A stretch of 64,000 nt of DNA from Ignavibacteria bacterium (GTDB lineage Bacteria; Bacteroidota; Ignavibacteria; Tepidaquicellales; OLB5), in the NCBI GenBank assembly GCA_017303675.1, contig JAFLBX010000001.1, positions 817,970 to 881,969 on the forward strand, written 5' to 3'. Shown in pieces: positions 8,447 through 54,178 of this stretch (positions are counted from its first letter, which is position 1; each line of letters begins with the position of its first letter). The position numbers were made by a program, and so were the translations under genes. The notes beneath the pieces were generated by a model. That model ran no database searches, was not told the origin of the DNA, and saw only the letters and a list, made by a program, of their open reading frames with translations.

Positions 8447-9925
8447 TTATAAATTCGGGGAGTTTTTTAATTCGGTAATTTTTCTGATAAGCCAACCCTT
8501 GCTGTTTAAATACTTTTGTTTTTCTACATCTTTTAATAGAACTATCAGCTCATTTGCCGGCTTGTTTCCGGTTCTGAATCGCGTGATAGCCCTTAGATAT
8601 TTTATATAGTTTTCATGCCTCTTTAAAAGGAGCGTATTCATTATATCTGAGTTATTGACCATATGAAGGTATGTATCAAGCAGAGAAAACAACGGTTCTA
8701 TTGAGTTTGTTTCATAGTAGATTTTGGATTGAATATTCTTCATTTCAATTTTATAAATAAATTGATCCGTTTTAACCAGGCTAATATGGTCAAGGGCTTT
8801 ATCAAAATTTTTATTAGTAAATTCCACCTTTGCCATTCCGTAATTAAATAAAGTTTCTTTGTATTTGGGTTCAAGTTCTTCTAAATACTCATTTATGAAA
8901 TTTCTTATCCACTCGGTCTCTTTGATACTGATTCCAACAGAAATAACATTCCTGAAAAACCTTCTGGGCATGAATTTTAATTCACCGCCTGTGAAATAAT
9001 ACAGTTTCTCTTTTAAAACGATTTTATAGATCTCAAAACTTTCCCTGAGCCATTTTGTATCTCCTCCCAATGTTTTAGCAATGCAGATACCAAGTAAGTT
9101 TATATAACACCTGTTTTTTAGATCTTTATCAAGTTTATCATAGTTTTCTGTAACTAAAGCCCTGGCTTTAAAATAATAGCTGTCGTTTTCGGGATGTTTG
9201 TTTGCCAGCAGCAGGAAATAGTATATTTTCAGCAATACAGTATTATCGGGGCTGTCTCTTTCAAGTACGGATATCATTTTTTCAAAAGGGGTAATTTTTA
9301 AAATGCTGCCAAAGCTGCTTTTAGTATATTTTTCGTTAGAAAAATTTACAGTGCTCAGCAATTGATTTTCTGCCTGTATAAGCATATGAAGATAGTACCT
9401 TACGAGGAACAAATTACTTTTGTTTATTGCTGAATACAGCCTTGACCGCTCATCATTGATAAAATAGTGATCGTAGATTTCTTCGTAAAAAGAATATTTT
9501 TTAAAGTAATCCATGAAACCGATTTTATCTTTATCAAAAGAAGAAAGAACTTTATTTATTAAAAGATCAGCTTCATTTTTTAAACCTTTAAGGCTTAACT
9601 CTCTTGTCAGTATTGTTTGTTTTCTGTGTAAATCTTTTTTTAGGTCTCTGTGAACCAAATAATCTTCAGCCAACGAATATAAGCCGGAAAGCATAGTGTT
9701 AATTACTGTTTCTTTAAAAGTTTTTCCGGGAAAAATCTTTTTATAAAGGTTTTCTTTTATAAGATTTTGCGATTTATACTCGGGTGAGAATTTTTTTAAT
9801 GCTTTTATTAACGGAATATAATTTCGGCTTTTATTAAAGTAAGGTGATGCCGCAAATTTCTCAAAACCTTTCCACTCTTCCTTAGAAAAAGTTTTAAGTA
9901 ACCTGAATATCTTGTTTTCTTTCAA
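8447..9925 (-). CDS. SPYFN-family helical-repeat protein 1
   Basis: This 492-residue protein has no signal peptide or membrane span and is almost wholly helical. Three landmarks are shared with five other proteins in the window. The N-terminal LLKTFSKEEWKGFEKFAASPYFN spans residues 9-31. At about 70-95 comes IFPGKTFKETVINTML followed by SLAEDYL. Near 335-380 there is a TPR-like helical hairpin (NFINEYLEELEP ... FDKALDHI), and the C-terminus reads GWLIRKITELK. I know similar uncharacterised proteins in other Bacteroidota, from memory only. It is divergent from the ribbon-helix-helix-like gene at 10104 across a 178-nt spacer, which suggests a regulatory or sensory partnership. No catalytic motif is visible. 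Confidence 0.75.
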   Translation of the reverse strand: MKENKIFRLLKTFSKEEWKGFEKFAASPYFNKSRNYIPLIKALKKFSPEYKSQNLIKENLYKKIFPGKTFKETVINTMLSGLYSLAEDYLVHRDLKKDLHRKQTILTRELSLKGLKNEADLLINKVLSSFDKDKIGFMDYFKKYSFYEEIYDHYFINDERSRLYSAINKSNLFLVRYYLHMLIQAENQLLSTVNFSNEKYTKSSFGSILKITPFEKMISVLERDSPDNTVLLKIYYFLLLANKHPENDSYYFKARALVTENYDKLDKDLKNRCYINLLGICIAKTLGGDTKWLRESFEIYKIVLKEKLYYFTGGELKFMPRRFFRNVISVGISIKETEWIRNFINEYLEELEPKYKETLFNYGMAKVEFTNKNFDKALDHISLVKTDQFIYKIEMKNIQSKIYYETNSIEPLFSLLDTYLHMVNNSDIMNTLLLKRHENYIKYLRAITRFRTGNKPANELIVLLKDVEKQKYLNSKGWLIRKITELKNSPNL

Positions 9926-10030
9926 AAATCCTGTTTAAAATATTTGTTATAAAATAACGAAACCGGGCAAAAAACGCAATATATTTGGAATTTCTTTCTC
10001 AAAATTTGTTTAAAAATGAACAAATATTTC

Positions 10031-10086
10031 TTTGCTGTGCACATACACGATGCACTATCTTCGCAGTGTTGCACAATTGTGTGCAC
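10031..10086 (+). promoter_or_regulatory. Promoter with GTGCAC operator array, cassette 1
   Basis: A Bacteroidota-like promoter is visible: TTTG at 10031-10034, then 21 nt, then TATCTTCG at 10056-10063 (consensus TAnnTTTG). GTGCAC boxes surround it: 10037-10042 (2 nt after TTTG), ATGCAC at 10050-10055 touching the -7 element, TTGCAC at 10069-10074 (5 nt after the -7) and GTGCAC at 10081-10086 (6 nt further). CACAATTGTG at 10072-10081 is a perfect palindrome. The same box geometry occurs upstream of the paralogous small gene at 15440. Autoregulation by the encoded small protein is inferred. Confidence 0.7.
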
Positions 10087-10103
10087 TAAAATAAAACTTC
10101 AAA

Positions 10104-10313
10104 ATGCAGGAAGAAAATTTCGAAATTAAAAAGACTGAACTTAGGACAGCAAGAGGATACAGGCTTAAGCTTTCAACTCACCAAATGATAAAAAGTCTGC
10201 AGGAATTAACCGGCAGCGATGCTGATACGGTACTTACAGAATCAGTACTCCTTATGTATAAAAAGGTTATAGCAGAAAAAGAAAGTAAAACAAAAATAAA
10301 CATAATCTCATAA
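10104..10313 (+). CDS. Small ribbon-helix-helix-like regulator, cassette 1
   Basis: A 69-residue protein. Residues 18-57 read as strand-helix-helix: GYRLKLSTHQ (strand), MIKSLQELTG (helix A), then DADTVLTESVLLMYKKVIAEK (helix B). This matches the order and size of MetJ/Arc/CopG-type DNA-binding dimers. It is paralogous to the product of 15237-15440, sharing GYRL..STH..I..L...TG.D.D..L. It is the first gene of an operon; its TAA overlaps the AAGGAGG ribosome binding site of the secreted-protein gene starting 10 nt later. GTGCAC boxes flank its promoter. The fold is inferred by eye. An antitoxin role is unlikely because the partner is a large secreted protein. Confidence 0.68.
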   Translation: MQEENFEIKKTELRTARGYRLKLSTHQMIKSLQELTGSDADTVLTESVLLMYKKVIAEKESKTKINIIS

Positions 10314-10322
10314 GGAGGAAAT

Positions 10323-12926
10323 ATGAGAAATTTTGTAAAGAAACATAAAATATTAATTTCAGGGATACCGATTTTAACCGGTATTATAACGGCTGTATTA
10401 ATTCTGCTCTCACATGATAAGGAAGTAAAATTCAAAACGTACGATGCTGAAGGAAATGAGATAGAAATTACAGAAGAACAGCACCGTAACAGAATAAAAA
10501 AGCAAAAATCGAGTGAAGTTAAAGGTAAAATGGTTCATCTTGCTCCTGGATACGAAGAGTTTATGAAGAGCTACACCCAGGAAAAAATGATTCAGAAAAT
10601 GAATGAACATTTGAACATGCCTTCAGAAAACGATCCCGGTGATATGCCTGTAAACAACTGGATCTTTAAAGGACCTTACTCGGCTGATTCCAGAACATGG
10701 CCGGGAATGAAAATTTGCGGGAGGATCAGGGATCTTGAAATTGAAGGTGTGCCAAGCCTTAGGGCAGCAAGCGCTACCGGAGGTTTATTCAGCAGTGTTC
10801 TGATCTTTCCTTACCCGGTAAGCGATAATATCACAACATTAAGTATAGGCGCTTTTGCTACAAATCCGTCTGATTCTGCTATAATACTGCTTGGAACCGG
10901 CGAGCCGGAGTATTATCCCGGAAACGGTATGTGGAGAACGACCAATGGAGGCCAAACATGGAATCAGATTCCATCGAACTATATACCTCAATCAGGGCAA
11001 ATCAGAGAAATAAGATTTCAGCCCGGAAATAATAATATAGTTCATGCCGCCGGGAACAATGGCTACTTCAAATCAGTTGATGGCGGGGTTACATGGTCTC
11101 AAAAAGTTTCAGGTAATATAACCAGCCTCGATGTTCCAACATCATCATCAAATATAATTTTTATTACAAAAAGAAATGATGGTGTATATAAATCAACCAA
11201 TTTCGGTGAAAATTTCAGCAGGCAAAACAATTATCCGTTAACTGGCGGTAATTTAAAAACAGCCAGTGTTTCGATTGCTTATTCAAATATCAACTACGTT
11301 TATGTAACCGCCTCCGGTGATGATGGATTAACAAGAGGTCAACACCGGACCACAGATGGAGGAGCAACATGGCAGGATATTACATATAGAGTGAGCGGTA
11401 ATGTTGTACAGATTCACGGTACTAACGGTCAGGGTGACAGGAATAACTGCATAGGTGTTTCGCCAACTAATCCAAATCTTGTTATAATAGGCGGAGTTGA
11501 CGGAATCAGATCAACAAACGGTGGTGCATCATGGGCTTACATTCCTTTAAATATCGGCACAGTTCATGATGATTTTTGTGTGATAAAATGGCACAGCAAC
11601 GGCAATTCAGTTTATATTGGTACAGATGGGGGCATTTCACATTCTGTTAACGGTGGGGCAACATTCAGTACTGTTACAAGTATTTTTCCGGCGATGCAAT
11701 TTTGGGGAATAGATGCTGCAGCCAATAGTACAGGGTTCGTTATTACCGGCGGTACACAGGATAACTCAATTGTAAATTCATCAAATAATGGAAGTTCATG
11801 GTTTGTTTCTTCAGTTTGGGATGCAAGCCATACTACTATTGATAAAAATAATCCCGCTGTACAAATGTCAACACTTTTTTCAACTTCTGCGCATTCTGTA
11901 TACAGAACAACTAATTACGGTTTAAGCTGGTCTGATGTCACTGTTCCGTTTTCAAGCATTTATGGAGGAATGATCAGGAATGATAATGTAAGCCCGGTTT
12001 GGTATTACGTAAACCGCGGAAACAGGGTCTATGTATCAACTAATATTGGTACAAGCTGGTCTCAGGTAGGCGCTTCTTTTCCGGATGCTTATGTAGCCAA
12101 CATAAGTGTTGGAAGGTATTCTGCTCCTTATGCACCGTTATACGCGGTTCTGCCGAATACAACAACAAGAGTTTTGCTGTTTGACGGCTCAAATTGGGTT
12201 CAAAGAAATTCCGGTCTCCCGACAGCCAATATGAGTGTTATGGGACAACACCCTACAAATAATAATATTGCATTAATTTCAACAGCTTACGAAAGTTATC
12301 CGGGTCAAAAAATATATAAAACTACCAATAAAGGGGTCAGCTGGACGAACATATCCGGAAATTTTCCGAATTTTAGCATTACATCGCTTATTTTGCATCC
12401 AACTCTGAACAATGTTATGTTTGCCGGTACAACCTGGTGGGGTGTATATAAAACAACTGATGGCGGCTCAAACTGGTTCAGGTGGATGAACGGTATGCCC
12501 CAAAGCCAATGGGTTGAAGCATTAGCGTATGTTGACAGCAGTTCAATTAATGGTAAATTTTATGTAGTTGCAGGTACTCATGGAAGAGGCGCTTATGTAA
12601 GGGAGTCTGGCGGCGATGACCCGCTGACAGGCAATAACAACAACAATACCAGCCTGCCAAAAGAGTATTCATTGAATCAGAACTATCCTAATCCATTCAA
12701 TCCTTCAACAAGGGTTGATTTTGATCTGCCTGTTAGTGATGTTGTTACATTGCAGATATTTGACATCACAGGAAGGCTGGTGAAGGAGATCATGAACAAT
12801 AAGCTGTATCCGGCCGGAAGCCATTCATTTAATTTTGATGGCAGAGGACTTTCCAGCGGAGCATATTTCTACAGGATAACTACTCCGAAATTTACAGATG
12901 TGAAGAAAATGGTATTAGTAAAGTAA
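10323..12926 (+). CDS. Secreted BNR/sortilin-like beta-propeller with T9SS sorting domain
   Basis: An 867-residue protein with an N-terminal hydrophobic segment (about residues 10-29) serving as signal or anchor and a charged helical stretch to residue 110. Two groups of BNR/sortilin-like blades follow, with recurring TTNGG.TW, SVDGGVTW, STNGGASW and TTDGGSNW Asp-box motifs to about residue 740. The last 90 residues are the sorting module: NYPNPFNPST, DITGRLVKEI and a KKMVLVK end. The propeller suggests carbohydrate or protein binding at the cell surface. It is translated from a strong AAGGAGG site directly after the small regulator gene. No enzymatic residues can be assigned. Confidence 0.88.
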   Translation: MRNFVKKHKILISGIPILTGIITAVLILLSHDKEVKFKTYDAEGNEIEITEEQHRNRIKKQKSSEVKGKMVHLAPGYEEFMKSYTQEKMIQKMNEHLNMPSENDPGDMPVNNWIFKGPYSADSRTWPGMKICGRIRDLEIEGVPSLRAASATGGLFSSVLIFPYPVSDNITTLSIGAFATNPSDSAIILLGTGEPEYYPGNGMWRTTNGGQTWNQIPSNYIPQSGQIREIRFQPGNNNIVHAAGNNGYFKSVDGGVTWSQKVSGNITSLDVPTSSSNIIFITKRNDGVYKSTNFGENFSRQNNYPLTGGNLKTASVSIAYSNINYVYVTASGDDGLTRGQHRTTDGGATWQDITYRVSGNVVQIHGTNGQGDRNNCIGVSPTNPNLVIIGGVDGIRSTNGGASWAYIPLNIGTVHDDFCVIKWHSNGNSVYIGTDGGISHSVNGGATFSTVTSIFPAMQFWGIDAAANSTGFVITGGTQDNSIVNSSNNGSSWFVSSVWDASHTTIDKNNPAVQMSTLFSTSAHSVYRTTNYGLSWSDVTVPFSSIYGGMIRNDNVSPVWYYVNRGNRVYVSTNIGTSWSQVGASFPDAYVANISVGRYSAPYAPLYAVLPNTTTRVLLFDGSNWVQRNSGLPTANMSVMGQHPTNNNIALISTAYESYPGQKIYKTTNKGVSWTNISGNFPNFSITSLILHPTLNNVMFAGTTWWGVYKTTDGGSNWFRWMNGMPQSQWVEALAYVDSSSINGKFYVVAGTHGRGAYVRESGGDDPLTGNNNNNTSLPKEYSLNQNYPNPFNPSTRVDFDLPVSDVVTLQIFDITGRLVKEIMNNKLYPAGSHSFNFDGRGLSSGAYFYRITTPKFTDVKKMVLVK

Positions 12927-12946
12927 AAACTATGTTCAGCAATAAC

Positions 12947-12980
12947 AAAAAGTCCCGCTTTAACTCCGCGGGACTTTTTT
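12947..12980. terminator. Bidirectional intrinsic terminator
   Basis: AGTCCCGC at 12951-12958 pairs with GCGGGACT at 12968-12975, flanked by an A-run on the left and a T-run on the right. It separates the two convergent secreted-protein genes ending at 12926 and 13012 and can serve both. Confidence 0.9.
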
Positions 12981-13011
12981 GTTTACACAATATTTATTAA
13001 ATAACTTAAAT

Positions 13012-14766
13012 TTATTTTATAAGAACCATTTTTCTTGTTTCGGCAAATCCATCTGTTTCAAGCTTGTAAAAATAAATTCCGCTTGCATATTTTTCCGCAT
13101 TCCAGTCGTAATTATAAGTACCGGGAAGCAGATTTTGATTTATAAGTACTTCTACAACTTTACCGGTAATATCCATGACGGTTAAGGAAACTGCTGAAGC
13201 TTTTAGAATATCAAACCCGATATTAGTAACCGGATTAAAAGGATTTGGATAATTTTGCTGCAGGCTGTAATTTTTGGGAACTTCAGTTGAAATATTCTGA
13301 ATACCTATTAAGCAGTTAGCCTGTGAATACCTTAACCTTATAGTATCACCCGGCATTGGACCAAAACCAACAGCGTAGGAAATTCCTCCGCCTAATCCTT
13401 CACAAAAATGACAATAGCTCATAATAGTACCATATCTTGGACTGTAGCATCCGTTACTTTGTGGCTGAGGAATACATCCTTCGGGAAAACCATACTGGTT
13501 TGAATTTTCGGGTGTTATAATACAGGTATCAATTGGTCCCCCGGGCCACATGCAGGCATGTGTATGCCTTGAGCCTACATTATGTCCCATTTCGTGTGTT
13601 ACAACAGATACTGTCCATGAATACTGCGGATACGGCAAGTAGCTGGTTTGGATAACACTTACAGCATAAGAACCCGAAGAATCGGCGGGATTATATGGTT
13701 TACATAAGCTTCTGATGTGTGCGATACCTCCGCTTACATCTGTTCTTGTTGAAATTAAATGTGCTATATGGCTGCCGGACATATTGTTCTGGATCTGTGC
13801 ACCAAACCTTTGCCTCATATTGTAAGTATCGTATCCTATCATCGGGTCGGGGCTGTTGTAATATAATATTGAACCAATTTCCATAGGAATGTTTTCATTC
13901 TGGTAAAGAGTTTTTGTGACAGCAAAAAAGCCGTTAATGTAATTCACAAGCGTAGTTGTGTTTTGACCAGCATCTAACCACATTTGGTAATCTGCAACAA
14001 ATAAAACTTTAACCGGATTATTAACCATATTCATTTGGGGAGTTTCACCTGAAACATGGTTAGCTTCAACCGGAAAAGTTGATTTTTCTTCTAATCCTTC
14101 AAGCTTGCAGACAAAAGGATTACTTTTGTATAAAGTAAAATCATTATAATAAATATAGTCACCGGGGGAGCTTTCTCCGTTATTAACAGGACCCAGCACC
14201 CAGTTTCCGTTTTCATCAGAAACAATACCTTCTATATGATCTTCAAAAATGCTGATTACGGCAACTGAACCGCCGTTTCCTTTTATTATGCCGTTGTAAT
14301 GCAGAGAGTTTTGTCTGAAAGACTGTTCTTTATAAATTCCTGATTCAAAAGAGTATATTTTAAAATCATCAGAAAGTGGTTTAAAGGCAGTCAGTTCAAG
14401 TTCAATATTTTTGTTGCCGGCAGGAAAAATAAAATTTATGTTGCTGTATTTAGCTGATAAAAATTCTGACAGAGCCTGCCTGTTAATTTTTAAGAATTCG
14501 CTTTGATAGGCAAATTCGCCGCGGGCTTTTTGGTTCACCGGAGCAGGAGAAAAAATTTCTATATTGCTGAAATACTCATTTCCTTTTTTTAACGCAATGG
14601 TTTGAGCAGCAGTTTTATTGGATTTAAGCAATTCTCTTAAATAAGAATTTTGAGGAGTATTGTTTGTATGTCCGGGGTTATTACTGAACCCTATAAAAAA
14701 AGCAACCGATGCAAACAAACATAAAACAAAAAAAAAGCTGAAAAAACCGGTTTTAAATTTATTCAT
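13012..14766 (-). CDS. Secreted reprolysin-type (M12B-like) zinc metalloprotease with T9SS sorting domain
   Basis: The 584-residue protein has a signal peptide (about residues 8-24) and a propeptide-like region to about residue 235. The catalytic domain holds the extended zinc motif HEMGHNVGSRH at about 389-399, followed by a Cys-rich segment (TCIITPENSN, MSYCHFCEG) containing the Met-turn-like IMSY. The last 90 residues form the sorting module with NYPNPFNPVT and a terminal KKMVLIK. It should be an exported endopeptidase matured by propeptide removal. It lies 7 nt downstream of the lipoprotein gene in the operon of the second ribbon-helix-helix-like protein. The zinc motif makes the assignment strong. 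Confidence 0.93.
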   Translation of the reverse strand: MNKFKTGFFSFFFVLCLFASVAFFIGFSNNPGHTNNTPQNSYLRELLKSNKTAAQTIALKKGNEYFSNIEIFSPAPVNQKARGEFAYQSEFLKINRQALSEFLSAKYSNINFIFPAGNKNIELELTAFKPLSDDFKIYSFESGIYKEQSFRQNSLHYNGIIKGNGGSVAVISIFEDHIEGIVSDENGNWVLGPVNNGESSPGDYIYYNDFTLYKSNPFVCKLEGLEEKSTFPVEANHVSGETPQMNMVNNPVKVLFVADYQMWLDAGQNTTTLVNYINGFFAVTKTLYQNENIPMEIGSILYYNSPDPMIGYDTYNMRQRFGAQIQNNMSGSHIAHLISTRTDVSGGIAHIRSLCKPYNPADSSGSYAVSVIQTSYLPYPQYSWTVSVVTHEMGHNVGSRHTHACMWPGGPIDTCIITPENSNQYGFPEGCIPQPQSNGCYSPRYGTIMSYCHFCEGLGGGISYAVGFGPMPGDTIRLRYSQANCLIGIQNISTEVPKNYSLQQNYPNPFNPVTNIGFDILKASAVSLTVMDITGKVVEVLINQNLLPGTYNYDWNAEKYASGIYFYKLETDGFAETRKMVLIK

Positions 14767-14773
14767 AGTTAAT

Positions 14774-15250
14774 TTATTGTTTAATTTTATTAATCGTTAA
14801 TTTTCCTTTTGATTTTAAGCCCGAATAAGTAATATGGCTCCAGTTGCCCGTTGAGGGCTTACCGGATGCCTCTATGGTGAAATATACGTTATCATCTGTT
14901 GCATCGGGGCAGAATTTAATTCCTATTAGTCCGGTACTTTTATCATAATTCGTTTCTGTTTTGCATCCGGCAATTTTATTATTAATGTAAAAATCACCGG
15001 CAAATACAGTATCAATGTTGATAACTGATGACAAATTTCCGGAATTGTTTAATTTAGATATCAGAATATCGCCTGAATGTATAAGCCCTTCAGCAGAGTC
15101 AAGCATACTGTAGTAATATTTACCTTCCGGGTTATTGCTTTTCTTTTTATCCGAAGACGCTGAACATGAAATAATAGCAAAACAGAATATCATAAACAAA
15201 ACAATTAACATATAATTGCCGGTATTTTGCAGAAATTTAGATATCATCAT
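14774..15250 (-). CDS. Putative lipoprotein of the metalloprotease operon
   Basis: A 158-residue protein with a hydrophobic N-terminus ending in a lipobox-like IISCSASS (Cys about residue 29), so it is likely anchored to a membrane. The mature part appears beta-rich and includes ISKLNNSGNLSSV, a CKTETNYDKS segment and a closing SHITYSGLKSKGKLTINKIKQ. No family is recognised. Its start codon overlaps the last 14 nt of the upstream small regulator gene, and its stop is 7 nt before the metalloprotease gene, so the three are tightly coupled. A chaperone, inhibitor or anchor for the protease would be reasonable but is not shown. Confidence 0.7.
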   Translation of the reverse strand: MMISKFLQNTGNYMLIVLFMIFCFAIISCSASSDKKKSNNPEGKYYYSMLDSAEGLIHSGDILISKLNNSGNLSSVINIDTVFAGDFYINNKIAGCKTETNYDKSTGLIGIKFCPDATDDNVYFTIEASGKPSTGNWSHITYSGLKSKGKLTINKIKQ

Positions 15251-15440
15251 TATTTTTCCTTTGTAAATGAAATTTTTCAGAGTTATCCAGTTCTTTAAGC
15301 AATAACAGGCAACAGCGGTTTAAAAGCTTATCATGATCATAACCTGTAATATGTTTAAGGTTAGCTATCAGGTTGTGAGTTGATTTTGTCAGCCTGTATC
15401 CTTTTGAAATCCTTATTTTATTTATATTTTTTTTAATCAT
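15237..15440 (-). CDS. Small ribbon-helix-helix-like regulator, cassette 2
   Basis: The start is placed at the ATG at 15438-15440 (MIKKNINKIRISKGYRL, 67 residues). The open frame continues to 15548, but those codons run through the promoter and GTGCAC boxes, and the protein aligns with its paralog only from this Met. Residues 14-50 again read strand-helix-helix: GYRLTKSTHN, LIANLKHITG, DHDKLLNRCCLLLLKEL. The pattern GYRL..STH..I..L...TG.D.D..L is shared with the product of 10104-10313. It is the first gene of an operon with a lipoprotein and a metalloprotease, and it is divergent from a SPYFN-family gene. DNA binding is inferred from the fold. Confidence 0.66.
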   Translation of the reverse strand: MIKKNINKIRISKGYRLTKSTHNLIANLKHITGYDHDKLLNRCCLLLLKELDNSEKFHLQRKNNDDI

Positions 15441-15451
15441 CAAAACGGATT

Positions 15452-15507
15452 GTGCACTTTTTAGTGCACTTAAGTGAAAATAATAAAAAATTCCGGTGCA
15501 CTCCAAA
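15452..15507 (-). promoter_or_regulatory. Promoter with GTGCAC operator array, cassette 2
   Basis: Read on the minus strand: TTTG at 15507-15504, 2 nt, GTGCAC at 15501-15496, then TATTTTCA at 15482-15475 (21 nt after TTTG). Five nt later comes GTGCAC at 15469-15464, then 6 nt, then GTGCAC at 15457-15452, ending 11 nt before the ATG. Spacings of 2, 21, 5 and 6 nt are identical to those upstream of the gene at 10104. The -7 element is less perfect than consensus TAnnTTTG. Confidence 0.68.
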
Positions 15508-15639
15508 GAAAAATTTGAATAATTGTGACAGTTAAATGTAAACCGCAATAACAGAAATTTAATAAAAAGAGATGATTTTTGGCATTTTTAGCGCATATAA
15601 AATTGACGAATTTTAGGGTATAAAAATTACCGGATATAA

Positions 15640-17121
15640 TTGCATTCACTCAAAATTACTGAAATTCTGAAGACATTTTCAGTAAAGGAACTGAAAGAAT
15701 TTGAAAAATTTATTTCCAGCCCGTTTTTTTCCAGGGGAAGAAATGTTGTGCCAATTTATAAAGCAGTAAAAAAATTTTACCCTGCGTTTAATGATAAAAA
15801 ATATAATAAAGAAAATATTTACAGACTTGCGTATAAAAATAAAAAATTCAGCAGCCCTGTATTCAGAAGGCTGATTTCGGACCTGACTTTGCTTGCAGAA
15901 GAATATTTAAGGTATTTATGGTTCAATTCTGAAGGTATAGAGCGCGAAATAGCCTTAGCGTGCGGATACTCACGGAAAAAGAAATTTAAACTAATGGCTC
16001 CTTCCCTTAAAAAGCTTTCTCAGCGGCTGTATACTATGCAGATTGATCAGGATTATTTTGAATATTTATATCAGCTGCAGTGTATGTATGTACATTACTA
16101 TCAATGTACCAGCGATAACTACAGGCTGCATTTAAGAAATTGTATCGATAAAGGCGAATTTCTTGTATTAAACGTTTTAAGCAGGCTGGCGCAGATACTG
16201 CATGATAATTTTGTTCTTAAACACGCGTATAACTGTGATTATGAAGAAAATATTCTGAATGCGTTTAAAGATAATTTTTCAATTGAAGGTTTTATTAATA
16301 TGGTTTCCCGCAAAGAAGGCAGGTATAATAAAATTATCAATTTTTATTCTTCATTAATAAAACTTTATATTGATGCAGAAAAAAAGATAAACAATAAAGT
16401 GCAGGAAATTGAAGATGATTTTATGATGTCTTTCGGCAGCCTTAAAGAAATTTATAATGAGCTTTATTACAGCGAAAGAAATCTTGCCGGCGTAATATTA
16501 ACTACATACTGTACACTAAAGATAAACGAAGGACTGGATGTTTTTGTGAAGCATATTTTTGAGCTGTATAAATTTACGCTTCAGGAAAATATACTGCTTT
16601 ACAACGGTTTTATTCCTTACCAGATATATCTTGATTATATTTCAAAAGCAATTTTTCTTAATAAAACAGAGGATGCAGAAAACTTTATAAATGAATATAC
16701 GGAAAAGCTAAACCCTGAAGTAAAAGATCTTGCCTATGGGCAAAGTATGGCAATGCTGATGCTGAATAAAAAAAATTTTACGGGCTCTCTGGAAATTTTA
16801 AAAAAAATAAAACCTTTTGATTTAAAAAACAAATGTGAAATCAGAATACTGCAGGCGGTAAATTTTTATGAATTAGGATACTATGATACCCTTGAGCATT
16901 TTATTGAAACTACTTTAAAGATGCTTGAAAAAAATGAAAATATTACAATCTACAAAAGAAAAATATATGTTCCGTTTTTTTCTTATCTTAAGAAGTTGAT
17001 TAAATTGAGATACAAAAATACAGATAAAATTGAAGCAGAATTATTGATCAATAATATTAACTCCGAAAAATACTTTTCTTACAAAAAATGGCTGGTGGAA
17101 AAATTTAAAGAATTTGTTTGA
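15640..17121 (+). CDS. SPYFN-family helical-repeat protein 2
   Basis: A 493-residue soluble helical protein starting at a TTG codon; this start places ILKTFSVKELKEFEKF at the same distance from the N-terminus as in its paralogs. The motif is ISSPFFSRGRN here, followed by KFSSPVFRRLISDLTLLAEEYL near residue 70-95. The TPR-like hairpin NFINEYTEKLNPEVK ... FTGSLEILKKIK lies near 350-395, and the C-terminus is KKWLVEKFKEFV. The gene is very AT-rich and Lys/Asn/Ile-rich compared with its neighbours. It is divergent from the ribbon-helix-helix-like gene at 15440, mirroring the 8447-10313 arrangement. Function unknown. Confidence 0.73.
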   Translation: MHSLKITEILKTFSVKELKEFEKFISSPFFSRGRNVVPIYKAVKKFYPAFNDKKYNKENIYRLAYKNKKFSSPVFRRLISDLTLLAEEYLRYLWFNSEGIEREIALACGYSRKKKFKLMAPSLKKLSQRLYTMQIDQDYFEYLYQLQCMYVHYYQCTSDNYRLHLRNCIDKGEFLVLNVLSRLAQILHDNFVLKHAYNCDYEENILNAFKDNFSIEGFINMVSRKEGRYNKIINFYSSLIKLYIDAEKKINNKVQEIEDDFMMSFGSLKEIYNELYYSERNLAGVILTTYCTLKINEGLDVFVKHIFELYKFTLQENILLYNGFIPYQIYLDYISKAIFLNKTEDAENFINEYTEKLNPEVKDLAYGQSMAMLMLNKKNFTGSLEILKKIKPFDLKNKCEIRILQAVNFYELGYYDTLEHFIETTLKMLEKNENITIYKRKIYVPFFSYLKKLIKLRYKNTDKIEAELLINNINSEKYFSYKKWLVEKFKEFV

Positions 17122-24061: not shown

Positions 24062-25495
24062 TTACACCATCCTTTCCAAAAGCCATTTTTTATGAACAAT
24101 GTTTTTTACCTGCTTTAGGCTGTTTTTAATTTCATCAGCAGATCTTTTGCCTGAATTTAACTTAGCCAGCTTATTGTAATAATGCAGGAAATTCCTGTAC
24201 TGCTCATTGTACACAGGGTTCATAAGGTTTTCCTTTTGTAAAAAATGGCGGAATGAATCAGCTGCCGCCAGCGCCTGCTCAATAAGCCCGGCATCATAAT
24301 ATACCCTAAGCTGCAGCGCTTTCAGGTTCAGCTTATATGATACAACTTTTACATTCCTTATCATTGCCAGGTGTTTCAGCGCTTCATCAAACTCACCCCT
24401 TTTGCATTTTAATTCCGCTGCTGAAAAATTGATCCAAAAGTTCTGCTCTTCAGGTTCAAGCTTTGGACCGTATTCATTTATGAATTTTTCAGCATCATCA
24501 ATTCTGCCGAACTCAATAAAAGTGCTGAACAGATTATTGTACCTGTTGGTATCGAAGTAATCATCCTTATCAAATGAAGTAATCCCGTTTTTTAGTCCGA
24601 ACAAAAGTATCTCCAGCTTTTCATCAAGAAATTTTTGATCCTCTGTTAAAAAATAGTTTTTATGACAGAAATTTATGATAATGGAAATAATATTATAACA
24701 ATCTTTATGTCCAAGCTCCTTAAAAGAAGAATAAAACGCATTCTTCAGCCTGTAAAGGTCATCGATGTTATTGTTTTTCAGCAGAAGTACCCTGAGGTAA
24801 GCCAGGTTTAGTGTGGGATATTCCAGGTATTCCGGGTTTTTCTGAAGAAATAAAATGATCTCATCCAGGAATATCAGCTTTGGAGTGTAATTGATTATCT
24901 GGCTCTGGTTTAAATGGTAAAAATGGTCAGCAAGCATTCTAAGCAAAAAATAATAAGTAAGGAATTTCTGTTCATCATACAGATGTTCAGAAGGCATTTT
25001 ATCCTTGCTTGCAGTAAAGCTTGTGCTGTAAATATATTTCCTGTAAAATGCCATATGGTATTTTTCAAGGTAGTCATCAGGACCTTCCGGTATAATGTTA
25101 TCAGCTTCCTTTAGGCCTTCCCTTAGTACTCTTTCTGCCAGCTTTGTGTTGCCCGGATTATTCATAAGCTGATCGAGCAGGAATTTCTTTTTCAGCAGCT
25201 TTTCTTTCTGAAATCCTTTTAATGATAAATATTCCTCAGCAAGATCCTGCAGGTTAGACATCAACACCCTGAAGAAACCATCGCTGTATTTTGTTTTGCC
25301 AAACAGCTTTTTGTGAACAAACTGTTTTTCAAGCTTTTCATCAATGAACTCAGGATGTTGTTTCCTTATGTATTCGAACAAAGAAATAATGGCCTTGTTT
25401 GAATTAAAGTAAGGAGATTTTACAAAATTGTTAAACTCCTTAAGCTGCTGTTTATCGAAATTTTTCAGTAATAAAATGAGGCTGCTGTTTTTCAT
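24062..25495 (-). CDS. SPYFN-family helical-repeat protein 3
   Basis: This 477-residue protein carries LLKNFDKQQLKEFNNFVKSPYFNSNKA at residues 9-35, LFGKTKYSDGFFRVLMSNLQDLAEEYL at about 65-92, the hairpin KFINEYGPKLEPEEQNFWINFSAAELK ... FDEALKHLAMIR at about 325-370, and a final KKWLLERMV. It is the most consensus-like family member in the window. No signal peptide or spans. It is divergent from the operon 25764-27986 (fibronectin-III-like small protein plus T9SS cargo) across a 268-nt spacer. A TAGATTTG element (minus strand, 25567-25560) may be its own -7 box, but no -33 match is at the right distance. Confidence 0.75.
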   Translation of the reverse strand: MKNSSLILLLKNFDKQQLKEFNNFVKSPYFNSNKAIISLFEYIRKQHPEFIDEKLEKQFVHKKLFGKTKYSDGFFRVLMSNLQDLAEEYLSLKGFQKEKLLKKKFLLDQLMNNPGNTKLAERVLREGLKEADNIIPEGPDDYLEKYHMAFYRKYIYSTSFTASKDKMPSEHLYDEQKFLTYYFLLRMLADHFYHLNQSQIINYTPKLIFLDEIILFLQKNPEYLEYPTLNLAYLRVLLLKNNNIDDLYRLKNAFYSSFKELGHKDCYNIISIIINFCHKNYFLTEDQKFLDEKLEILLFGLKNGITSFDKDDYFDTNRYNNLFSTFIEFGRIDDAEKFINEYGPKLEPEEQNFWINFSAAELKCKRGEFDEALKHLAMIRNVKVVSYKLNLKALQLRVYYDAGLIEQALAAADSFRHFLQKENLMNPVYNEQYRNFLHYYNKLAKLNSGKRSADEIKNSLKQVKNIVHKKWLLERMV

Positions 25496-25702
25496 AACAT
25501 TATTTAAAACAATATACTTACAGTAAAACTAACCGGAATCTTTATGCAGAAATTTTAAACAAATCTAAATTTTATTCCGATACAGAAATTTACTAACAAT
25601 CCAAAAAATAAAAACAACGTAATATAATCAAAAAACAGATTTAATCAACAGTATTTTTCATTTTAACTTGTGAAACCCGGAAACAAATTTTAAAAACATT
25701 AG

Positions 25703-30012: not shown

Positions 30013-31470
30013 TTATAATATTTCAGAACATTTCTTCAGCAGCCATTTCCGCTGGATCAGATCTTCATTGCCATTAACTGATTCATAAATATTAACAACG
30101 TTCCCTGAGTTCTTCTCACGCGCTTCAAACAGCCTGTTTGCAGCATTCAGAAAATCGAGGGCTCTTTGCCTGAAAACATTGCTTATAAGATCTGTTGACC
30201 TTACAAACTGCCGGGTTGAATCCACCAGCAGTCCGAATTCTTCCCAGAGATTCAGCTCATACAGCGCAATAAGCTTCAGGATCCTGAAATTCACTTTATT
30301 GTATACCAGGAATGGATCATGTTTATATATAAACTCAAGGGCTGAGCGGTAATTTCCCCTGGCAAGCTCAAGGCTTGCGTGGGTATAGTTAATGGTATCT
30401 TCCGAATACTCTCCTTTAAGCTCACCTGAATATTTTTTGAAGAACTTTTCTGCTCTTGCAAATTGATTTGCGTCTATATGCGCCTCCATACCCACAAGAA
30501 AATTCGCCGGAATGATAATTTTCAGCTGCGGGTCGAGAATTATCCCGAACTCATCAGCTTTTTCTATAACATTGCTGAGCTCTGAAGTAAAATCATATTC
30601 ATTGCTTTGGCTGTGCTTCAGGCAGTAATTGATAAGAAAAATGAAATAGAAATAACAAACCCTCCGGGGCATATCTGCGCCCTTTGCAAAAAGAAAGTCA
30701 CGGTAATTAAAAAAATGAACATGCCCTTCTTCAGCGCGGTACATATTCATCATCAGGCGGTTGACCTCAAAAGTAGGCATGTAGCTGAAATTTTGTTTTT
30801 CAAGTACTGCCGCAAATGAATTAAGATCTATATGGCTCAGCATTTCTTCAGCAATATTGAACTTTGCGGAGTTATTGTAAATATTTTTTTCAACCCATGT
30901 CCGGGCAGTTTCCTGCATTAATATTGATAAAAAATATATTATCCCGTAGCAATAATATGTCATGCGGTACTCAAAGTTCTTATGTGAGTTATTGTTATCG
31001 GTAGCGTAGTTCATCCACTGAATCTGCAGTATATGCCTTTCAAGCAGCCGCTGAAAGTCATATACCGATAAGTCATCAAACCTTTTTTCAAGCTCTCCTG
31101 CTTTTAACTCAAACAACCTGTTCAGCCTGCGCTCTCTGAGAGATACTGCAGCGAACAGCTCAATGAACCATGCAGTATCTGTATTTGCTCTTTTTAAACC
31201 AATATACTGCTCTGCCATTTTATGAAGCAGCGATGCGATCTTTCTAATTACCGTATCATCATATTTTTTCCCGGGGTAAATTTTTTTAAATAACTTTTCC
31301 CTTTCAACTTTATCTTCTTTAAATTCGGGATAGTATTTCCTGAGCTCACGCCAGAATTTATTTATGTAAGCGCTTCCGCCAAAATACGGTGAGCGTACCA
31401 CTTTATCGAACTCTTTGAGTTCCTGTTTACTAAAAGTTCTTAATATACCTGTTACCGCAAATTTATTCAT
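30013..31470 (-). CDS. SPYFN-family helical-repeat protein 4
   Basis: A 485-residue soluble protein. Landmarks: ILRTFSKQELKEFDKVVRSPYFGG (residues 9-32), IYPGKKYDDTVIRKIASLLHKMAEQYI (about 66-92), the hairpin KFFKKYSGELKGEYSEDTINYTHASLELARGNYRSALEFI (about 345-385), and the C-terminal KWLLKKCSEIL. It is divergent from the small secreted protein gene at 31643. It has a possible minus-strand promoter (TTG at 31553-31551, 20 nt, TAAAATTG at 31530-31523) that lies only 23 nt from the -33 element of the opposing promoter, so the two transcripts may interfere. Confidence 0.74.
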   Translation of the reverse strand: MNKFAVTGILRTFSKQELKEFDKVVRSPYFGGSAYINKFWRELRKYYPEFKEDKVEREKLFKKIYPGKKYDDTVIRKIASLLHKMAEQYIGLKRANTDTAWFIELFAAVSLRERRLNRLFELKAGELEKRFDDLSVYDFQRLLERHILQIQWMNYATDNNNSHKNFEYRMTYYCYGIIYFLSILMQETARTWVEKNIYNNSAKFNIAEEMLSHIDLNSFAAVLEKQNFSYMPTFEVNRLMMNMYRAEEGHVHFFNYRDFLFAKGADMPRRVCYFYFIFLINYCLKHSQSNEYDFTSELSNVIEKADEFGIILDPQLKIIIPANFLVGMEAHIDANQFARAEKFFKKYSGELKGEYSEDTINYTHASLELARGNYRSALEFIYKHDPFLVYNKVNFRILKLIALYELNLWEEFGLLVDSTRQFVRSTDLISNVFRQRALDFLNAANRLFEAREKNSGNVVNIYESVNGNEDLIQRKWLLKKCSEIL

Positions 31471-37739: not shown

Positions 37740-39233
37740 ATGCTGAAAAGTAATGCTTTAGAGATCATTAAGAGCCTCACAAAACAAGAAATTGCCGAAT
37801 TCAGCGATTTTTTGATCTCTCCTTTCTTCAATAAAAAAAAGACTGTAATTAAATTATTCACTGAAACAATGAAGTATGCGCCGGATTTTACGGATAACAG
37901 CTTAGAAAAGGAAACGTTATGGTCAAAAATATACCCGGATAAAGAATTTAACTATGGGGTTATGAAAAACCTTATACATGACCTGACCAAACTTGCTGAA
38001 GAATATATTACACAAAAAGAGTATAGCTTAAAAGAACTGCTGCAATTTGAGCATCTTTATGCTTCGTTGAATAAAAGAAATTTAAGAAATGTTTGCCTTA
38101 AAAAAGAATCATTACTTAATAAAAATTTCAGAGATGATGTTTCTGACTTTACAAATACAAACTTTGATGAATTTTACGGCAGCTTAACAAAGATTTATGA
38201 AACAAAACTTTGGGATTCATCTTTTAATGATCAGCAGGAATATTTTAATGAAGAAATTAATTGCATGACAGATAATTTTGTAACGGGTATTTTAATTCAT
38301 TTAATTAATGTTTATTATTTAGCGTTAGTAAGCTCGTATAATGATAAAGGTAAAGAGATTACCGGCAATACAGCCGGTATTATTCTAAAAAATATTTCCG
38401 ATGATGCTATTGAGACTGTTATAAAAGAATTAGGTAACCGTTCAGAATTTAAAACAAAGTTAATTAAGGGTTATTTTCTGGCTCATAAAGCTAATACTAA
38501 TTTAAATGAGTCCAGGTATTTTTTTGAATTTAAAAATTACTTTTTGAATAATTATCAAAACATGCCATATAATTATTTAAAAGATTTGGATACTTATTTA
38601 CTTAATATTCTATCTTCACTTAAGGACTCCTCGGTTGATAAAAAGAGCGAATTCTATAGTTATCATCATTTCAGACATGCAAACAATCTGGTGCCGGAGC
38701 GAAATAATCAACTAAACAGTATTCAGTTCATACCCTGGATGTTTCTTTTTTTGGATGAAAACAGACCTGATGAACTTGAAGAATATATCAAAAGCTATAA
38801 AGATTATATTGTGGACGATGACAGAGAAGCTACTCATATTTTTGCAGAAGCGATGACGTTTTTTTTGAAGTCAGAGTTCGGGAAGTCATTATCGTTAATA
38901 AATACGATCAAATTTAAGTCAGCAATGCTGAAAAATATTCTTAAAAAATTTTCTCTTATGAACTTTTATGAACTGAAAGACTTTGAAGGGTTTAGTTTTG
39001 CTTACGATTCTTATAAACATTTCTTAAATTATGGTAACTGGGCGAAAAAAGAATGGATAGAACATTATATAGAAAAGACCAAAATATTTGCGGGTGTAAT
39101 AGACACATTATTTAAATTATGGGAATCAGAAGATAAAACCAGAATATTAACTTACGAAAAAAAACTTGTTAATCTTAATATCGATAACAAGAAATGGTTT
39201 CTGAGAAAAATTAATGAATTAAAAACAAATTAA
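37740..39233 (+). CDS. SPYFN-family helical-repeat protein 5
   Basis: A 497-residue soluble protein. Landmarks are IIKSLTKQEIAEFSDFLISPFFNKKKT (residues 9-35), IYPDKEFNYGVMKNLIHDLTKLAEEYI (about 66-92), a more diverged hairpin EYIKSYKDYIVDDDREATHIFAEAMTFFLKSEFGKSLSLI (about 365-405), and C-terminal KKWFLRKINELKTN. It is the only SPYFN gene lying between the 70-bp repeats; copy B starts 38 nt after its stop. Divergent from the small secreted protein gene across 191 nt. No catalytic residues evident. Confidence 0.74.
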   Translation: MLKSNALEIIKSLTKQEIAEFSDFLISPFFNKKKTVIKLFTETMKYAPDFTDNSLEKETLWSKIYPDKEFNYGVMKNLIHDLTKLAEEYITQKEYSLKELLQFEHLYASLNKRNLRNVCLKKESLLNKNFRDDVSDFTNTNFDEFYGSLTKIYETKLWDSSFNDQQEYFNEEINCMTDNFVTGILIHLINVYYLALVSSYNDKGKEITGNTAGIILKNISDDAIETVIKELGNRSEFKTKLIKGYFLAHKANTNLNESRYFFEFKNYFLNNYQNMPYNYLKDLDTYLLNILSSLKDSSVDKKSEFYSYHHFRHANNLVPERNNQLNSIQFIPWMFLFLDENRPDELEEYIKSYKDYIVDDDREATHIFAEAMTFFLKSEFGKSLSLINTIKFKSAMLKNILKKFSLMNFYELKDFEGFSFAYDSYKHFLNYGNWAKKEWIEHYIEKTKIFAGVIDTLFKLWESEDKTRILTYEKKLVNLNIDNKKWFLRKINELKTN

Positions 39234-52723: not shown

Positions 52724-54178
52724 TTACAGCATCTCTATCATTTCTATAAGCCAGTGTTTATTGTAAACATTTGGCGACATAGACTCCATTTTTGTTATCA
52801 ATTCACTTTTCCCTGATGTTTTTTCTCCGGATGATGTTCTTAAAAGGTCGTTATACACTGCAGCAAAGTTAAGATAAACATTCCGGTAAGCTTCGCTTAT
52901 AGTTTTATTTTTGTAAAGAAATTGTTTGTACGAATCTAGCGCGAATCCGGCCGATTGGTAATCTCCTTTTTCATAATATATCCTCAAATAGAATGTTTTA
53001 ATAGAAAGCCTGAAGAGGAACTGGCTCAGTTTGGTTTTGTTTAATACCTCAAGAGCTTTATCAAAATCTTTACGTTTATACAATATGATTGCTCTTGCAA
53101 AATTCAATGCGCCTTCTTTGATTTCAGATTCCAGTTCGACGTAATACTTCTCAGCAAATTCTTCTGCCCAGTCTATCTGGTTGATCTCAACTGAATTAAT
53201 AAAAATATTCCAGAACTTAAGCAAATTCAGGGTTCCTTCTTCATACAGTTTCAAAAGACCCAGTTCAATGGTTTTGCGGTGAATTGAATTAAGTTCTGCC
53301 CTGTATTTTGCGGAATCTAACTTGATGTTATTGATGCAGAATGTTTCCATTGTAGTTACAAGGTTATAGTTGGTTGCCCTCTTAAACAGAGATGAATTGC
53401 TGAAAAATAATTCCTTAAACTTTAAGTAATCTTCTTCTTTTCCTTCAAGCGAAAGAATGGCTCTGTAGTAGAAGATTTGCAGAACAGAATAATCCGTTTC
53501 AGAAGTATTTTTCAGTTTTTTTAAGATTAAATCAATATCAAGCCCTTCAAAGAGTTTTTTGGTAAATGTGTTACTATCTTTTATGCTATAGTAAGTTTCG
53601 TTTACCTGCATATCAATAATGTGATTTATCAGTTTTGAAATATAATCATATGTAAGCAATTCACCCTGCTTTACAACAACAGGGTAAACACCTTCCTGCC
53701 TGTTATGAGTAAGCTCATTGAGAAAAACTTCACACTCAAGTTTGTAAAGATGCTCAAAGTATAAAAAGTCGAGTGAATGATCCTTCTGAACTGATTTGTA
53801 AGCGGCCTTAAGGTTTTTATCATACAGCGCGTCCAGGTTTCTCGTTCTCAGTTCATGTAATGTGTATCGCATTTCTACATTAACATCTTTGCTAATCCCT
53901 TCAATGGTTAAAAATTCATAACTTAGCTGCAATGCGTCGCTCATTAGATTTCTCATAACCTGGTCATTATATGTCCGGGTTGAAAAAACTTTAGTGTATA
54001 TTTTTTCTTTGGTAAAATTTCTGTTATCAAAATCCGGGTAATATTTCTTCAACAGCTCCACCAGTTTTGAAACTGACTTGCTGGAATTGTGATATGGTGA
54101 ATTGGCAAAATCAGAAAATCGTTTTACTTCCTCTTTTGAAAATGTTTTGATTACATCTATGAAGTTAGTTTTGATCAT
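52724..54178 (-). CDS. SPYFN-family helical-repeat protein 6
   Basis: A 484-residue soluble protein. Landmarks: VIKTFSKEEVKRFSDFANSPYHNSSKS (residues 9-35; the motif is SPYHN here), VFSTRTYNDQVMRNLMSDALQLSYEFL (about 66-92), the hairpin EFAEKYYVELESEIKEGALNFARAIILYKRKDFDKALEVLNKTK (about 340-383), and the C-terminal KHWLIEMIEML. It is divergent from a four-gene operon (54492-58857) across a 313-nt AT-rich spacer. It has no recognisable domain outside this family. Confidence 0.74.
   Translation of the reverse strand: MIKTNFIDVIKTFSKEEVKRFSDFANSPYHNSSKSVSKLVELLKKYYPDFDNRNFTKEKIYTKVFSTRTYNDQVMRNLMSDALQLSYEFLTIEGISKDVNVEMRYTLHELRTRNLDALYDKNLKAAYKSVQKDHSLDFLYFEHLYKLECEVFLNELTHNRQEGVYPVVVKQGELLTYDYISKLINHIIDMQVNETYYSIKDSNTFTKKLFEGLDIDLILKKLKNTSETDYSVLQIFYYRAILSLEGKEEDYLKFKELFFSNSSLFKRATNYNLVTTMETFCINNIKLDSAKYRAELNSIHRKTIELGLLKLYEEGTLNLLKFWNIFINSVEINQIDWAEEFAEKYYVELESEIKEGALNFARAIILYKRKDFDKALEVLNKTKLSQFLFRLSIKTFYLRIYYEKGDYQSAGFALDSYKQFLYKNKTISEAYRNVYLNFAAVYNDLLRTSSGEKTSGKSELITKMESMSPNVYNKHWLIEMIEML

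Follow-up and report, generated by a model that had tools for sequence, protein, structure and literature searches.

GTGCAC-marked modules with putative ribbon-helix-helix autorepressors precede secreted-protein operons in Ignavibacteria

Introduction

What regulation would give two promoters the same hexamers at the same distances when the bases around them differ? The question is raised by a window of 64,000 nt (the whole stretch of DNA analysed here, on contig JAFLBX010000001.1 of an Ignavibacteria bacterium with a genome totalling 3.65 Mb), in which a preliminary description had reported matching GTGCAC layouts upstream of two genes for small ribbon-helix-helix (RHH)-like proteins. We consider it highly probable that the small protein is a CopG-like RHH autorepressor of its own secreted-protein operon, acting through the GTGCAC boxes, with the divergently encoded SPYFN protein a possible modulator.

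Matching promoters in the window

Re-reading positions 10031-10104 and 15507-15440 confirmed that the two promoters match in layout base for base and that the reported box spacings of 32 bp and 12 bp are exact at both sites (Table 1). In module 1, as in module 2, two bases separate TTTG from the first box (10037), and the small genes begin at ATG 10104 (+) and ATG 15440 (-). The promoter elements fit the Bacteroidota consensus, TTTG/TAnnTTTG. Six copies of GTGCAC occur in the 64-kb window, five of them inside these two promoters.

Table 1 Features of the two modules in the window
Feature	Position	Strand	Basis
SPYFN protein 1, 492 aa, predicted all-helical TPR-like, divergent partner of module 1	8447..9925	-	model of a paralog
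TTTG, -33-like promoter element, module 1	10031..10034	+	read from sequence
GTGCAC box 1, module 1, between -33 and -7	10037..10042	+	sequence
TATCTTCG, -7-like element, module 1, 21 nt after TTTG	10056..10063	+	sequence
TTGCAC, degenerate box 2, module 1, N5 after TATCTTCG	10069..10074	+	sequence
GTGCAC box 3, module 1, N6 after TTGCAC	10081..10086	+	sequence and genome scan
Small RHH-like protein 1, 69 aa	10104..10313	+	ORF and family profile
Secreted cargo 1, 867 aa, Sortilin/Vps10-like propeller and type IX secretion tail	10323..12926	+	PF15902, PF18962
Secreted cargo 2b, 584 aa, M12B reprolysin-like metallopeptidase and type IX secretion tail	13012..14766	-	PF13688, PF18962
Cargo 2a, 158 aa, small putative lipoprotein	14774..15250	-	hydrophobic N-terminus; lipobox-like FAIISC by eye
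Small RHH-like protein 2, 67 aa	15237..15440	-	ORF, family profile, structure model
GTGCAC box 3, module 2, N6 after box 2	15452..15457	-	sequence and genome scan
GTGCAC box 2, module 2, N5 after TATTTTCA	15464..15469	-	sequence and genome scan
TATTTTCA, -7-like element, module 2, 21 nt after TTTG	15475..15482	-	sequence
GTGCAC box 1, module 2, N2 after TTTG	15496..15501	-	sequence
TTTG, -33-like promoter element, module 2	15504..15507	-	sequence
SPYFN protein 2, 493 aa, divergent partner of module 2	15640..17121	+	ORF and structure model

Distribution of the boxes

A profile search with the small protein identified seven paralogs of 52-69 aa in the window genome, both window proteins among them, as their proposed paralogy had implied, and at least two GTGCAC copies lie upstream of each (7/7). 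Scanning the whole genome for the tandem pair TGCAC-N6-GTGCAC returned three places only: besides the two window promoters, a site at C1:1216280 that ends directly upstream of a third paralog. The preliminary description would have given up the operator had GTGCAC pairs been common away from such genes; across 3.65 Mb all seven pairs within 36 bp adjoin small genes, and a reversed control contains zero. Pairs with a gap of up to 30 bases cover six of the seven loci, the exception being module 1, where the exact boxes are 44 bp apart. The word itself is not depleted in 379 kb of the window genome (28 copies seen versus 18.8 expected, operators included).

The same specificity extends to relatives. 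Among 13 genomes of the genus, 33 of 35 tight GTGCAC pairs stand at small-gene operons; the two others lie at the coding start of a secreted-protein gene (genome G004) and upstream of a gene without a small protein (genome G011). Across 15 genomes of the family we found 71 small genes. GTGCAC occurs within 160 bp of 66 of them and a divergent SPYFN gene within 900 bp of the same number, 64 having both; some small genes carry one exact box only. The 71 upstream regions hold 125 boxes compared with a mean of 1.9 and a maximum of 6 in dinucleotide shuffles, so the matching boxes are not a product of chance. The five box-less genes comprise one locus in OLB5 (L079), one gene next to the end of its contig and three genes from the family's two most distantly related genera. 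At L079 an operator lies 3.9 kb upstream of the small gene, heading the same gene run with other genes between. In OLB5 (L199, 1-6609), the SPYFN gene is broken into two frames and several extra exported-protein genes lie between operator and small gene. In the sister family, boxes and a divergent SPYFN gene occur together at five of six small genes, and the sixth has neither. Within a 395-genome sample of the phylum the small gene was confined to the window's own genus; the relatives that carry a name, Chlorobi bacterium OLB5 among them, are Ignavibacteria, and a search for viral relatives found none. Genome-wide specificity, the family-wide survey and the sister family strongly support the conserved operator that had been postulated.

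Spacing classes

The 32/12 geometry is not borne out as a general rule. It is exact at five loci and recurs with a degenerate middle box at four more, module 1 included, which brings the class to about nine of the 71 loci; other small genes have distances of 6, 7, 10, 11, 12, 20, 23-25, 33-34 and 44 bp. The operator word is therefore general and the exact 32/12 geometry a subclass. Small proteins share the spacing class of their nearest protein neighbour (<80% identity) in 0.52 of cases versus 0.11 after shuffling. Judged from these comparisons, spacing class follows protein subfamily, with common descent of the DNA accounting for part of the agreement.

All modules are homologous and their spacing classes follow protein similarity, as would be seen if the matching boxes were mere duplication traces of one ancestral locus, devoid of regulatory function. 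Yet the two window proteins are only 36% identical and their upstream DNA is dissimilar, GTGCAC is nonetheless the commonest hexamer in the 71 upstream regions, outranking the -33 word TCTTTG, and the boxes persist across the 15 genomes and the sister family while their positions move. We regard duplication without function as extremely improbable.

Placement relative to promoters

Recognisable promoters account for 113 boxes, all but one of which (112) fall within the core promoter or downstream of it: 23 are between -33 and -7 and 89 past the start of the -7 element, the remaining one being upstream of -33. The median box is 25 bp from the ATG of the small gene versus 128 bp from the SPYFN start; among SPYFN promoters, nine were recognisable and showed no clear pattern with respect to the boxes. 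This placement is where repressors sit, as in the operator of a CopG-like autorepressor that overlaps its own promoter, and activation by a protein bound downstream is unlikely.

The majority of boxes follow the -7 element and hence would be transcribed, which leaves room for RNA elements of a short leader; alternatively, a third, unlinked regulator could use the boxes, the small protein in either case acting otherwise. However, the boxes between -33 and -7 fall outside the transcript, and both versions sit poorly with the near-perfect co-occurrence of boxes and small-protein family and with the DNA-binding fold predicted for that protein. Both versions together seem to us improbable, and autorepression by the small protein is the reading that we carry forward.

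Boxes track the small gene and not SPYFN

The window genome contains 48 SPYFN genes or pieces, seven of which adjoin a small gene. In the 400 bp upstream of each of the seven linked genes there are two or three boxes; the roughly 40 without a small gene have zero GTGCAC in the same interval. Boxes thus go with the small protein and are absent from SPYFN genes that lack a small gene. The window itself holds four more SPYFN genes (24065-25498, 30013-31470, 37740-39233 and 52724-54178), without a small RHH gene or boxes. Genome-wide, SPYFN genes are often in tandem or divergent from other genes, including secreted-protein genes. The matched stretch of one copy (G000:C1:122980-124410) contains a TAA codon in frame, which is probably the gene's regular stop codon where the match ends. 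Upstream regions of orphan SPYFN genes were compared for a common palindrome, and only AT-rich words emerged. The notion that RHH-linked SPYFN proteins form one clade was rejected, as they are scattered over many clades and mixed with unlinked SPYFN proteins.

These data bear on whether the divergent SPYFN protein might itself bind the boxes, the small protein being a co-factor or an unrelated short gene. SPYFN adjoins 66 of the 71 small genes, and its structure resembles TPR regulators. Against binding by SPYFN stand the box-free SPYFN paralogs, two small genes that keep their boxes without a SPYFN neighbour, and the position of the boxes beside the promoter of the small gene and not that of SPYFN; we hold this reading to be improbable as well. 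The earlier assignment of the boxes to the adjacent small protein is supported by their distribution and by the near-invariance of the strand by which that protein would contact DNA.

Predicted folds

In small protein 2, the AlphaFold monomer (mean pLDDT 75) has an extended N-terminus in which the beta strand is not formed, followed by helices at residues 19-32 and 36-62, with pLDDT of 91-92 over residues 21-50. Fold matches are mostly RHH proteins (MatP, AtaR, ParD, KacA, TacA, CopG, Arc and NikR), with Z of at most 5.5. Curated RHH families gave no match above cut-off for 33 diverse small proteins, three of which weakly match the RHH antitoxin family PF07704 (best E 0.041, below cut-off); four of 14 weakly match a phage family of transcriptional regulators, phrog_3887 (best E 3.1e-5). 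A profile search of solved structures gave chance matches only for both the small protein and SPYFN. The proposed RHH fold is thus upheld in part: the monomer model and the weak, mostly RHH fold matches favour it, but model confidence is moderate and the strand is missing from the model. Because an extended N-terminus precedes two helices and the fold matches, although modest in score, are mostly RHH, the small protein is likely to be an RHH protein. G, Y, R and TH are invariant among the 33 proteins, and KGYRLK, the strand predicted to contact DNA, hardly varies; by analogy with CopG, the invariant residues would lie in this strand.

The SPYFN model is all-helical (pLDDT 88.5). A second look at its structural matches placed Rap, NprR and other TPR regulators best, at Z 13-14, a score that helical solenoids can reach by chance; TPR profile matches are weak, and Pfam and NCBIfam contain no family describing SPYFN. 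A few further families of the phylum also encode SPYFN.

Gene order and cargo

Nearly all modules have a common layout of a divergent TPR-like SPYFN gene (~490 aa), the operator, the small gene and secreted, usually type IX, cargo. In the window (8447-17121), modules 1 and 2 mirror each other, with SPYFN genes outermost and cargo genes convergent; closely placed module pairs occur in relatives as well (L105, L109, L114, L115, L117 and L130). In the family survey, 65 of 67 genes directly downstream of a small gene encode a protein with a hydrophobic N-terminal segment. Cargo in the window genome includes Sortilin/Vps10-like and BNR propellers, a reprolysin-like peptidase and a CarboxypepD_reg protein, and a Pfam type IX secretion tail was found in tested cargo of six of the seven operons, the second gene of the seventh having a similar C-terminus by eye. 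At five loci (L011, L098, L127, L134 and L186) the small RHH gene and the secreted cargo gene share one reading frame with no stop codon between them, and the open frames span 570-758 aa in whole contigs; if these are true fusions or read-through, a DNA-binding domain would stand ahead of a signal peptide.

Many RHH antitoxins autorepress through tandem hexads, as RelB does (PMC2812701), and antitoxins are among the fold matches of the small protein, features that would suit type II toxin-antitoxin loci with an RHH antitoxin. That identity is nevertheless very unlikely: the next gene is exported in those 65 of 67 cases and is not a small cytoplasmic toxin, and full-length next genes carry type IX secretion tails, propeller or peptidase domains.

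Discussion

In the mechanism that we favour, dimers of the small RHH protein would recognise the palindromic GTGCAC boxes, of which an operator usually has two or three, often 10-12 bp apart. Bound boxes, which overlap or follow the core promoter, would repress the protein's own operon, consisting of the small gene and its secreted, mostly type IX, cargo. The paralogs would share one box word because the predicted contact strand is nearly the same in all of them, and box number, spacing and placement, which differ by subfamily, may set affinity and specificity. RelB is autorepressing: its dimers line up along one face of the DNA on hexads within 12-bp half-sites, and the spacing is critical (PMC2812701). 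Binding as tandem dimers, perhaps cooperative, is plausible here by analogy, because the palindromic boxes often show a 10-12 bp spacing like that of the RelB operator. Unlike RelB/RelE and other RHH antitoxin systems, the modules lack a toxin gene, and their box spacing ranges from 6 to 44 bp between subfamilies.

Half-sites of the CopG operator contain TGCA, which is near GTGCAC. CopG represses the copG-repB operon of plasmid pMV158, comprising its own gene and a co-transcribed gene (PMC5717011). The modules resemble that system in having, by prediction, a small RHH gene first in the operon, a repressed promoter of its own and a co-transcribed second gene; they differ in that CopG serves plasmid replication control without a divergent TPR gene, secreted cargo or a paralog family, and its fold match to the small protein is weak (1b01/1ea4, Z about 4). 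MatP, the top second-look fold match (Z 5.5), is likewise an RHH-containing DNA binder. Its role is to organise the chromosome; it carries an additional domain and recognises another site, matS.

Autorepression is an established principle; what is new is the module, the scale on which it occurs and its TPR-like partner. Literature searches joining GTGCAC with RHH and operator found nothing, and papers containing both ribbon-helix-helix and Ignavibacteria have titles and abstracts on other subjects. GTGCAC-marked, multi-copy modules of putative RHH autorepressors before secreted-protein operons are a family not previously described.

SPYFN, as a predicted TPR-type helical solenoid, possibly modulates the neighbouring repressor. 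At about 490 aa it resembles the RRNPP regulators Rap, NprR and AimR in its predicted solenoid, differing in that it has no detectable sequence similarity to them and that its partner here would be an RHH protein; RRNPP regulators come from Firmicutes and their mobile elements and are paired with a propeptide (PMC10075063). A stronger proposal, that SPYFN proteins are Rap/NprR-like sensors whose RHH-linked subset directly controls the neighbouring repressor, forming a bank of gated switches, is doubtful at present and serves as a lead, because helical solenoids reach such Z scores by chance. If true, it would describe a bank of peptide- or protein-gated switches that use one word, GTGCAC, are kept apart by box spacing and each release a different secreted protein.

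For Ignavibacteria, a group known mostly from metagenomes, our analysis supplies a predicted regulator, binding word and set of targets for a new family, together with a first handle on the large SPYFN family. The paralogous repressors, with a common recognition strand and hexamer, would further offer a natural test of how cross-talk may be avoided or exploited through spacing.
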